Shown here one piece after another: positions 4,282-17,276 of a stretch of 42,962 bases of DNA (the first letter of the stretch is position 1; each line of letters begins with the position of its first letter). Position numbers and translations under genes: made by a program. The DNA comes from Chloroflexota bacterium (GTDB lineage Bacteria > Chloroflexota > Dehalococcoidia > Lucifugimonadales > Lucifugimonadaceae): NCBI GenBank assembly GCA_027618835.1, contig JAQCHZ010000021.1, forward strand, positions 1 through 42,962, written 5' to 3'. Below the pieces are notes generated by a model. That model was given only the letters and a program-made list of their open reading frames with translations. It made no database searches and had not been told where the DNA came from.

Positions 4282-5195
4282 CTAATGACGATGAATGTGC
4301 GGGTGCGCTTTGGGACCGGCGATCGGATTGTCGTGGCTGTGGTCGTGTTTTTGCCAGTCGTACGTTTCTAGTTCGTCGGTCAAAGTAACTTGGCCATCAA
4401 AAACGGATTTCACCTCGGCGATTCCACGTTCACGGTTTTAGGGTGCTGATAAATCGGACCCGACGTGAACTGAAAATAGTTCTTTCACACCTGCTTCGGC
4501 CGCCATTTCGGCTGCTCCGAGCGTGCCAGTCTGACCAATATCACCGACGCGGGCGTCGTACACCGATTGGAAGTTTCCGCACATGGACACGAGAGCATCG
4601 GCACCACGAGCTAAGTCGACGACTCTTTCACATGGTTCGGTATCACCAGTAAAAACGATCGATCCCTCGGATGTGTCTAGCCGATACGCCAGCGAGTCGT
4701 GATACGGCTCAACATGTTCAGCAGGTGCGGCGGTGACTTCGAAGTCGTTCCCAGTCCAACATCACGTGCTATTACGTTCATCCTGGATCTAGGAAGTACG
4801 CCGCCTCGAAGCTCGTACGTCGATTTGCTCAGAGGGTGGTTGGTGCGAGCGTTGATGTCGTATGCAAAGGCACATTCTTCCCCTACGAGCCTTTCTGTAA
4901 TCGACTCTGTGTTGTTGGGTCCGAAGGCATGCAATGGACTTTCTTTGCCTACGCTTTCGTCCCAGCGCGTCATCATGAAGCACGGGTAGTCGACATCGTG
5001 GTCGAAGTGGTGGTGAGTGAAGAACAGATAGTCGATGTCGAGCGGGTGCAGATCCATTTGCGCCATCTTGTAGGTAGTAGCAGGACCACAATCTAACTTG
5101 ATGTTCCTGCCGCCCACATCAACGACGTGCGAGGAACCAAATCGAGCCTTTATTGGTCTAGGTCCACCCGATCCCAGCACATGTAATTTCGCCAA
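4282..5195 (-). pseudogene. MBL-fold metallohydrolase, frameshifted and with an in-frame stop
   Basis: The frame starts at TTG 5195 (AAGGAA 5 bases upstream) and has the metal motif THHHFDHD (about residues 60-67) typical of RNase Z/arylsulfatase-like metallo-beta-lactamase folds. Around 4752-4764 the coding frame shifts. The continuation NDFEVTAAPAEHVEPYHDSLAYRLDT, TGDTEPCERVVDLARGADALV and ELFSVHVGSD is in another frame and supplies the remaining metal ligands (AEH, TGD, VHVG). A TAA at 4438-4440 then interrupts this second frame before the natural His-rich C-terminus HPHIHRH. Two independent lesions make a pseudogene likely, unless the assembly is poor here. It lies 95 bases downstream of the tetR gene on the same strand. 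Confidence 0.75.
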
Positions 5196-14093: not shown

Positions 14094-15566
14094 CTATACA
14101 GTCGGTAGCGCCATGTCGTCACGAGTTTCGTCTTGCCAAATCCTTATTCGAGCCGCCATTTGGCGGATTCGGTCTTTGTGCTCCGTCTTGTTGAATAAGT
14201 TATTGAGTTCAGCAGGATCTGAATTCAGGTCGTATAGCTCGCATTGATCACCGGGCGACAAGTTCAGGTTCCAGCGATCTCCGGTAACTACACCACGCCA
14301 CGGAATCGAAACCATTCGGTTGATATCAGGAGATCCGAGATTGCGATCGCCCATTCCGTTCCACTGGATGAATACGTCGTTGTCTGAAAGGTCTTCTTCA
14401 CCACGAAGCACTGAACGTAGCGATTTTCCTTCGATGTGATCAGGAATTTCGCTACCTGAAAGATCTAGAAGCGTAGGTACAAGGTCGACTTGTCCAACGG
14501 AACCTGCGATACGTGTTTGTTGGTCATTACTCAGCCAAGGGACGTACATAAGGAACGGTACGTTCGACGCCTCTTCGTGCAAAGATCGTTTTTCGAGCAT
14601 GCCGTGATCGCCAGCCATCTCGCCATGCTCGCTCGTGAATACGATGATCGTATTGTCGGCCTGTCCGCTTTCTTCGAGCGACTCGAATATTTTTCCGAGT
14701 TGCGTATCGACCAGCGTCACGTTGGCGAAATACTGAGCGCGCAGCTTGCGGAAGCCTTCTTCGTTAGTCGTGTCATGAACGTCACCACCGGCTTAGCCCA
14801 CCGGATTGTTTCCTCCGCCCATGTAGTAGTCAGATCTCAATCGATTTACGAGTGATCCTGAATCCGGGCGAACGCGAAATCCGGGACCAACGTCAATTTC
14901 GTTGGGGTCGTAAAGATCGTTCAACGGTCCGGTATACGGTGGGTGCGGCTCGAAAAAGTTCACGTATAGTATCCAAGGCTGATCGGTGTGATCGCCTTCA
15001 GGGAACTCCCTGATGAACTCAGATGCCTTGTGTCCTAAGAATCCGGTCTGGGTCTGCTCTTCGGTGAGCTCAGCGACTCCCACCCAGCCTTCGTAAGACA
15101 TCGACATAGATGGAGGTTCAACTCCGTGGTCACGCAGCCACTGGTTGTAAGGAGCTTCCTGATATCGATATTCCTTGCGAGTGATGCGCACTCGTTGGAA
15201 ATCTTCTACGGCTTCCCAAGTATCGAAACCGTGCTGAGCCGTCATGTCATCGCCCAAGTGCCACTTGCCCATGTGGGCGTTGTAGTACTCGTCGTCGATC
15301 ATGTTGCCAATCGTCGGAATATCTCGTGACAACGGAATATTGTTTCGTTGCAGCCCAGTTGCGTACGGGTACAGGCCAGTCATGATCGATGCTCGGGCAG
15401 GAGTGCAGACCGGCTGCGTGACGTATGCGTTTTCGAATACGAAGCTCTTATCGGCAAGCTTGCCGAGGTTTGGGGTTTTGATCCATTCATTGCCGTAAGC
15501 TCGCATCGAATCTCGACGCTGCTGGTCGGTGAGAATGAAAAGAATGTTGGGCTTGCGATCTTGCAT
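14094..15566 (-). pseudogene. Sulfatase interrupted by in-frame ochre stop at codon 258
   Basis: The frame encodes a 490-residue type I sulfatase: NILFILTDQQRRDSM with D14 as metal ligand, C54-T-P-A-R58 formylglycine signature, MGKWHLGDD, then after the lesion FTSEHGEMAGDHGMLEKRSLHEEA and a C-terminal QCELYDLNSDPAELNNL. TAA at 14795-14793 splits it between PVG and AGGDVHDTTNEEGF. Both sides are in the same frame and form one continuous domain, so the two halves were one gene. The C-terminal half alone lacks the nucleophile. No signal peptide. Recent decay or a single base error are both possible. It is more like choline/iduronate-type sulfatases than the sulfatase at 8990. Confidence 0.8.
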
Positions 15567-16717: not shown

Positions 16718-16805
16718 GGCACTCCTAGCATCCTTCCGGAAAAGTCTTGCATCTGATAGCGTCGACGTGGATCAAATCTACTTATCTACTTGTGGGAGAA
16801 ACCGA

Positions 16806-17276
16806 ATGGAAATGCTTGTACCGGATGATCAATTTCCGGACATTGAACTAGATATTGCTGGTGGCGGTTCGGTTTCGCTTCCGGGCGACGTCGCTGGGCA
16901 TTGGACGTACGTTCTGTTCTACCGCGGTGGTTGGTGACCATACTGCACTCGGCAGTTAGCTGAGGTGGAAGAATGGTTCGAACGACTTCAAGAGTTCGAT
17001 ATTAAAATCGTTGCTGGCAATACCGATGGTGATTCCGATACGGCTGAAACTCATGCCAATCACGATCTTTCGTTCCCGATAGCACACAGTGTTCCAGTCG
17101 AAATAGTTGAGAAGCTAGGTGCGTGGGTTGGTGAACGGCAGGGCAAAGCCATGGTTCAGCCTTGCGAGTTCGTTATCAGGCCCGACGGGACGGTAGCGGC
17201 ATCTATGTACGCGACAACCCAGCTCGGGCGTATGAAGCCTGAGGAAATCTGGAACTTTGTGAAGGCGCGAATTTAG
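16806..17276 (+). CDS. Candidate selenocysteine peroxiredoxin (AhpC/TSA family)
   Basis: The frame from ATG 16806 (GGGAGA upstream, short spacing) to TAG 17276 encodes 156 residues if TGA at 16935-16937 is read as Sec at position 44. Residues 36-47 read VLFYRGGW-U-PYC, where peroxiredoxins have VLFYRGGWCPYC; the TGA sits exactly at the peroxidatic Cys and the resolving-type Cys47 is kept. The rest fits the thioredoxin fold of the family: LAEVEEWFERLQEFDIKIVAGNTD, then FPIAHSV, and FVIRPDGTVAASMYA. A hairpin directly after the TGA has the form of a bacterial SECIS. The protein would reduce peroxides with thiols. Starting after the TGA would lose the active site, so a normal stop would make the gene useless. 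A Cys-to-stop base error remains possible. Confidence 0.7.
16938..16976 (+). promoter_or_regulatory. bSECIS-like hairpin after the TGA codon
   Basis: CTCGGC (16948-16953) pairs with GCTGAG (16959-16964), six pairs with one G-U, closing an AGTTA loop. CA 16946-16947 pairs with TG 16966-16967 over a bulged G16965, and CCAT 16938-16941 can pair with ATGG 16973-16976. The loop G (16955) is 18 bases after the TGA, within the spacing known for bacterial SECIS elements, which need a small loop with an early G. Pairing was worked out by eye. Confidence 0.55.

Follow-up and report, generated by a model that had tools for sequence, protein, structure and literature searches.

Selenoproteins of the peroxiredoxin (Prx) fold have been described in more than one form. 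In the accessible text of the survey of GOS sequences, a family 'Prx-like 1' belongs to pfam00578, carries the motif UxxC (U, selenocysteine or Sec) and counts 225 sequences (PMC2398784), and a catalogue of 2026 has, in its available part, a class called 'Prx-like thiol:disulfide oxidoreductase' (PMC13188914). In the available portion of a 2007 paper, TxxU and UxxC are homologous and differ in where Sec stands (PMC1914089). For Chloroflexi, the available section of a survey of 2006 gives three selenoproteins in three families (PMC1794560), and an excerpt of a SAR202-related paper places SelA and SelB COGs in bins of sponge symbionts. How does a Chloroflexota gene with a stop codon in its active site compare with these?

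The window, that is, the whole stretch of DNA that was analysed, is one contig of 42,962 nucleotides from a Chloroflexota genome of 2.4 Mb that is 89% complete. An open frame runs for 43 codons from the ATG at 16806 to a TGA and then for 112 codons up to the TAG at 17274-17276, as delimited in a first-pass annotation of this DNA, whose placement of the TGA was exact. The motif around the TGA is VLFYRGGW-U-PYC, and the 156-residue product matches Pfam AhpC-TSA with an E-value of 4.5e-21. We are highly confident that this is a functional selenoprotein gene, in which SelB and a hairpin would direct Sec to the TGA and whose product would be a redoxin of the peroxiredoxin fold with a UxxC motif. 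What looks at first like a damaged gene of the antioxidant type very probably encodes an undamaged selenium enzyme, with selenocysteine as the most likely reading of the internal stop codon. What computation provides as the basis is the Sec machinery, a conserved TGA, a covarying hairpin, purifying selection, the fold and the residue register. Positions are collected in Table 1.

Table 1. Features of the selenoprotein locus in the window, and other TGA-bearing redoxin genes of the same genome
Feature	Position	Strand	Locus	Remark
Putative selenoprotein gene	16806..17276	+		156-residue AhpC/TSA-fold protein; TGA44 predicted as Sec
In-frame TGA, predicted Sec44 (first residue of UxxC)	16935..16937	+		Same codon in relatives
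Cys47 codon TGC (second UxxC residue)	16944..16946	+		Aligns with canonical Prx peroxidatic Cys
GGGAG, probable ribosome-binding site (judged from the sequence)	16794..16798	+		7 bases 5' of ATG
Predicted bSECIS hairpin	16948..16964	+		6-bp core 16948-16953/16959-16964; loop AGTTA 16954-16958; loop G 16955
AhpC/TSA gene, PASFTGGU (PxxxTxxU)	G000:C10:64791-65183		L123	TGA at redox motif
AhpC/TSA gene, PKDFARGU (PxxxAxxU)	G000:C4:8507-8878		L124	TGA at redox motif
AhpC/TSA gene, YRAYWUTFC (UxxC)	G000:C12:12563-12937		L126	TGA at redox motif
AhpC/TSA gene, WASWUACR (UxC)	G000:C39:48401-48748		L127	TGA at redox motif
Thioredoxin, YC-TGA-INC = CUINC	G000:C6:71837-72526		L133, L134	Pfam Thioredoxin_8 + AhpC-TSA

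How would such a protein be made and how would it work? We infer that SelB with Sec-tRNA-Sec binds the hairpin and inserts Sec at the TGA. The active site U44-x-x-C47 would stand at the N-terminus of the first helix, comparable to the CxxC of thioredoxin; Sec44 would most likely attack a hydroperoxide, or else an oxidised thiol of a protein, as its substrate, Cys47 would resolve Sec44 as an intramolecular selenenylsulfide, and a cellular thiol system would then reduce this selenenylsulfide. If Sec is inserted, peroxide has a little better than an even chance of being the main substrate, while disulfide exchange is the less probable but still sizeable option; peroxide reduction, and with it a role in peroxide defence, is plausible.

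The AlphaFold model, made with Cys in place of Sec, has a mean pLDDT of 90 and a pTM of 0.87 and shows the peroxiredoxin fold. The best solved match of this predicted model is peroxiredoxin Bcp4 of Sulfolobus (3hjp, TM 0.90), and the family profile likewise matches peroxiredoxins and AhpC best, all of which speaks against the idea that the protein is chiefly a thiol-disulfide oxidoreductase with the chemistry of ResA or thioredoxin and not a peroxidase. In favour of that idea are the UxxC at the helix N-terminus, which is the thioredoxin register, the replacement of the canonical Prx Thr by Sec, the ResA chains among the profile and fold matches, and the term 'Prx-like thiol:disulfide oxidoreductase' given to UxxC relatives in the accessible parts of two papers (PMC1794560, PMC13188914); on balance we regard it as possible but tentative. 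The protein has both the PF00578 match and the UxxC motif, and it reaches no cut-off of NCBIfam (best 37.1 bits vs 211; AhpC 32.7 vs 272; PrxU 32.6 vs 270); the NCBIfam models matched by the 30 members of the family are the same few, with cut-offs known for the first member only.

The motif YRGGWUPYC aligns without gaps on PxxxTxxC, with Arg40 on Pro, Sec44 on Thr and Cys47 on the peroxidatic Cys, and Sec44 falls on Thr in all three printed single-protein alignments and all five family-profile alignments to solved Prx/AhpC chains, eight alignments that represent six distinct chains, namely an archaeal Prx together with five AhpC that hardly differ from each other, so that the base is narrower than their number suggests. 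The first-pass annotation had the TGA replace the peroxidatic Cys, and this part of it has to be given up, while Sec at the TGA, the bSECIS and the full machinery stand. That the protein is nevertheless a canonical peroxiredoxin with Sec44 in the peroxidatic role, as the family name AhpC/TSA might suggest, is quite improbable: all eight alignments put Cys47 there, the canonical motif PxxxTxxU/C with Sec or Cys at the peroxidatic position is absent from the window protein, and in the PASFTGGU paralogue of the same genome it is the true peroxidatic position that would carry Sec. Even so, an attack on peroxide by Sec44 is conceivable in spite of its non-peroxidatic register. Thus, the protein may be described as a UxxC Prx-like selenoprotein, perhaps working as a peroxidase, and not as a canonical Sec-peroxiredoxin.

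This reading of the TGA as Sec can be followed among relatives. When the genome and 99 relatives were searched at E <= 1e-10, 40 of the 100 genomes gave 53 matches, and exactly one in-frame TGA was present in 49 of them; of the four matches without TGA, two are partial and start 3' of the site, one has Ser there, and L108 is of the canonical PrxQ type. The TGA occupies the same codon, W-TGA-x-Y-C, in all 30 best loci (L031-L060, our own included). Close relatives that all have TGC had been named beforehand as a ground for abandoning Sec; the close relatives have TGA. In a sample of the phylum, 35 of 400 genomes were matched at E <= 1e-15, a TGA is found in 23 of the 46 listed matches, one of them also with a TAG, and the 12 non-TGA loci read at the site all have Cys. 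Against two close relatives, whose DNA is 84 and 86% identical here, the codons 3' of the TGA have 26 and 24 synonymous and 2 and 4 nonsynonymous changes, computed values that bear the signature of purifying selection after the TGA. Invariant in the 30-row alignment (A1, whose printout shows C for U) are P11, P26, R40, W43, U44, Y46, C47, R49, Q50, L51, P119 and E121, and most rows share the active site FYRGxWUxYCxRQL. Among viral contigs, 20 stretches matched the search pattern and none was confirmed. Genome contigs gave 24 stretches and two relatives, both from Chloroflexi MAGs; L009/L010 evidently represent the genes already listed as L032/L033, and each enters the counts a single time. One locus, L104 (G052:C165:133-1333), has two adjoining redoxin frames, YRGYFUGIC and FRAWWUTFC, with a TGA in each.

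As for the gene neighbourhood, the cupin-like and GNAT-like genes that lie upstream, so called by eye, recur only in L031-L036, the six closest loci, and an enolase-superfamily gene lies near the redoxin in nine of the 30 loci; the window holds several enolase-superfamily genes, also named by eye, which may point to a lineage of the SAR202 type. No partner gene was inferred from the neighbourhood of the 30 loci, where other clusters are partly antisense frames or Prx pieces.

The hairpin 3' of the TGA is as first described, with its AGTTA loop and with the loop G 18 bases 3' of the TGA. Its stem CTCGGC/GCTGAG includes one G-U pair, and a strict inverted-repeat search therefore misses it. Folding of 16930-16985, which had been proposed as a check, gives -20.6 kcal/mol compared with -12.6 +/- 2.7 in dinucleotide shuffles (z -3.0; 1 of 200 as good). 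According to the accessible text of the 2026 catalogue, a bSECIS has a loop of 3-9 nt, a stem of 4-16 bp, a G in the first two loop positions, a spacing of 16-37 nt and an MFE <= -7.5 (PMC13188914), and the window hairpin, with its loop AGTTA, a spacing of 16 and -13.8 kcal/mol, falls within these limits. It is to be noted that this generic model is lax, as 54 of 58 Sec rows but also nine of 15 Cys rows pass, so that the SECIS argument rests on register, loop and covariation. As to the register, the best model hairpin lies at spacing 16 in 37 of the 58 Sec rows and in none of the 15 Cys rows. These rows come from a widened set of 58 Sec, 15 Cys and one Ser distinct rows, which misses IYR rows such as L091 and L092, as does the 81-row tree below; in both, the pattern covered Cys, Ser or a stop at the site only.

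Covariation was examined in 38 aligned Sec sequences (A2), taken without near-identical copies, without L041 and L042 (same register), and without the FFRG-type (L060, L097-L100) and QLGELQ-type (L102-L106, L109, L113) rows, in which the hairpin register differs. Among them neither the TGA nor the loop bases A20 G21 T22 T23 vary. In the stem, 48 cells have changed on both sides, a number reached by none of 500 shuffles, which give 24.7, nor by the slid controls (1-23); the covariation score is 0.421 against 0.174 in shuffles (again 0 of 500) and 0.02-0.15 in slid controls, and 82.7% of stem cells are paired against 70.6% in shuffles, all of these shuffles ignoring the relatedness of rows. The number of pairs with double-sided change (4) is not above shuffles, of which 143 in 500 reach it. 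G-C, C-G and U-A are all found at pair 14-30 and again at 15-29, and pair 18-26 is G-C, U-A or A-U; pair 13-31 is formed in just 10 rows, and broken pairs are seen at 14-30 in seven rows and at 16-28 and 18-26 in five each. RNAalifold returns the same helix minus pair 16-28.

The loop leaves its mark on the codons as well. A Gln codon ends in G21, and the T22-T23 that follow leave TTA or TTG as the only choice for Leu; one of these two stands in all 38 aligned rows, compared with 175 of 800 leucines (22%) in 26 long frames of the window; at the same Leu, TTA/TTG is used by four of 15 Cys homologues, and by 45 of 52 rows in a wider Sec set with RQL that includes subfamilies with the hairpin elsewhere. 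Relative to synonymous recoding, RNA stability has a mean z of -1.94 in 53 Sec rows and -0.63 in 14 Cys rows, with p <= 0.05 in just 31 of the 53 and in one of the 14; the pattern for this set, F/Y before YR and a stop inside the locus, missed L033, L035, L041, L042, L045 and L048 among others. In our own genome, a covariance model of the hairpin finds the window match (3.6e-10), then nothing of note (next E 0.30), and hence the hairpin is family-specific. That it serves as the bSECIS of a Sec gene is strongly supported by these sequence comparisons.

The organism was predicted to need the Sec machinery, and a genome without it was to count against the proposal; SelA (513 bits, cut-off 268), SelB (318, cut-off 242), SelD (366, cut-off 125) and, by ARAGORN, a tRNA-Sec with anticodon UCA are all present. 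A second match of the tRNA-Sec model, 48.4 bits and just above the cut-off, is a tRNA-Ser according to ARAGORN. The SelD gene itself has one in-frame TGA; at this gene (G000:C41:13971-14897, L026) there is a hairpin CTTGCCCA-GGTTT-TGGGCAAG with spacing 32 and loop GGTTT. Of the 100 genomes, 79 have SelA and 34 of these show a TGA-bearing match, compared with three of the 21 that lack SelA (Fisher p 0.021), the latter three being 82, 74 and 81% complete, and 45 of the 79 SelA-bearing genomes have no TGA-bearing match. SelA is also present in the Cys-form genomes G146, G375, G416, G452 and G457. Therefore, the machinery alone does not decide between Sec and Cys.

Could the TGA be something else than a Sec codon? 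A scan of the whole window for stops flanked in the same frame by 30 or more open codons on each side found 272, which were ranked by the coding-likeness of their flanks. Only 10 have a positive coding score on both, and the TGA in question ranks third and is the sole TGA among them, in line with the earlier argument that chance would hardly put a stop at the Sec-favoured codon. The remaining nine are TAA or TAG: TAA 4438-4440, TAA 14793-14795 and seven more, some of which are ordinary gene ends; a coding-like frame is also split by TAG 1186-1188. The caution of the first-pass annotation about stray stops in the window was fair, but none of the other interruptions that resemble broken genes is a TGA. 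On the minus strand, a sulfatase-like gene (14094-15566, named by eye) is split by the single in-frame TAA 14793-14795 and TAA 4438-4440 lies between two coding-like frames; on the plus strand, TAG 1186-1188 lies close to the beginning of a frame that by eye resembles an aldo/keto reductase.

Such splits at 4438-4440, 14793-14795 and 1186-1188 are what would favour an ordinary nonsense mutation, a sequencing error or a pseudogene, a reading that is rejected with near certainty because the stop is conserved among relatives: it is a TGA and not TAA or TAG, it sits at one active-site codon in all 30 loci read, which come from many separate assemblies, selection appears to be purifying 3' of it, and the hairpin covaries. 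No more credible is a TGA read as Trp or another amino acid in a recoded genome or by general read-through, which would account for the open frame and the conserved protein beyond it, since other frames end in TGA (four of the 33 open frames of at least 200 codons on either strand of the window, not every one of which need be a gene), so that TGA is still a stop codon here and not reassigned wholesale; moreover, the genome has tRNA-Sec(UCA) with SelA, SelB and SelD, the site is Cys in 15 and Ser in one of the rows of homologues without TGA, as read under a pattern limited to Cys, Ser and stop, and the adjoining Trp43 codon is TGG.

Read as Sec, the TGA is not alone in this genome. Its 14 AhpC/TSA matches include six with one in-frame TGA, the window gene and five others (Table 1). 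The CUINC gene, which we take from its CCINC-type motif to be an NHLRC2-like thioredoxin, has a 7-bp hairpin CTTCCGC-AGTT-GCGGAAG 3' of the TGA, with a loop like that of the window gene. In its family, at least one TGA occurs in the best 25 of 71 listed matches (40 genomes), five of the 25 having a second stop, and the CUINC site was read in 10 of 10 loci, our own included. A literature search for selenocysteine in NHLRC2 found no related paper, and the term 'NHL' is absent from the 2026 review. It seems rather probable that these Chloroflexota rely on selenium for much of the redox chemistry of the thioredoxin fold: one genome has six TGA-bearing AhpC/TSA genes (UxxC, UxC, PxxxTxxU, PxxxAxxU, CUINC), two of them with the same presumably SelB-recognisable AGTT loop, and the window gene would belong to an unnamed UxxC subfamily spread across several families of Chloroflexota and apparently lost once to Cys and once to Ser.

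A tree of 81 homologues, of which 65 have Sec, 15 Cys and one Ser, shows in part how these forms replaced each other; five changes of the residue label are needed on it. L062, a Cys copy, and the Ser copy are both nested within a Sec clade whose support is good but not uniform, which suggests that both are losses of Sec, although it is possible that the Cys copy came by transfer instead. The Ser copy, whose codon is TCA, has lost the loop G (CAATTA, where aligned Sec copies have CAGTT[AG]), and L111 (G027:C43:47716-49117) carries Sec and Ser redoxin copies in tandem. A Cys group from large Chloroflexota genomes, together with a copy on a Deinococcus plasmid (98/53), is the long-branch sister of another Sec clade. 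The tree is taken as unrooted and includes a number of long Cys branches, which limits what it can say on whether Sec or Cys came first.

What is new, then? The broad UxxC Prx-like class is already known; the lineage, the measured covariation of the SECIS and the spread across Chloroflexota are the additions, and no description of these Chloroflexota genes came up in searches of open-licence papers. Because no NCBIfam cut-off is reached, automatic annotation would probably call the gene truncated. Its recognition gives a marine 'Prx-like' Sec class a phylum, and Chloroflexota a SECIS supported by covariation. Paralogues of one genome have a TGA at two neighbouring active-site positions (TxxU, UxxC), and the apparent natural replacements of Sec by Ser and by Cys in one clade offer a possible test of the benefit of Sec.

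Compared with known systems, the window family comes closest to the 'Prx-like' selenoproteins of the GOS and Sargasso sets, which, in the available text, are likewise of the AhpC/TSA type with Sec (PMC2398784, PMC1088965, PMC1794560, PMC13188914). In those accessible parts, the UxxC motif is shared with the GOS and 2026 tables, a bSECIS directly 3' of the UGA is common to the GOS/Sargasso class and the window gene, and the GOS and Sargasso sets are of marine origin; the difference, judged from descriptions, is that here the family is assigned to Chloroflexota, with machinery and lineage known. PrxU (TxxU) likewise has the peroxiredoxin fold and SelB-dependent Sec at its redox motif, but Sec in the window protein would stand three residues earlier, at the Thr position. 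The Cys redoxins with YRGxWCPxC, found in large Chloroflexota genomes and on plasmids including those of Deinococcus, Mycobacterium and Agrobacterium, are similar in length and motif, but have TGC or TGT at the site and the model hairpin at spacing 16 in none of 15 rows. Thioredoxin and ResA (CxxC) also have the redox pair at the helix N-terminus, from which the window protein differs by the predicted Sec for the first Cys, by its Prx-like fold and length, and by having Bcp4 as its best structural match.
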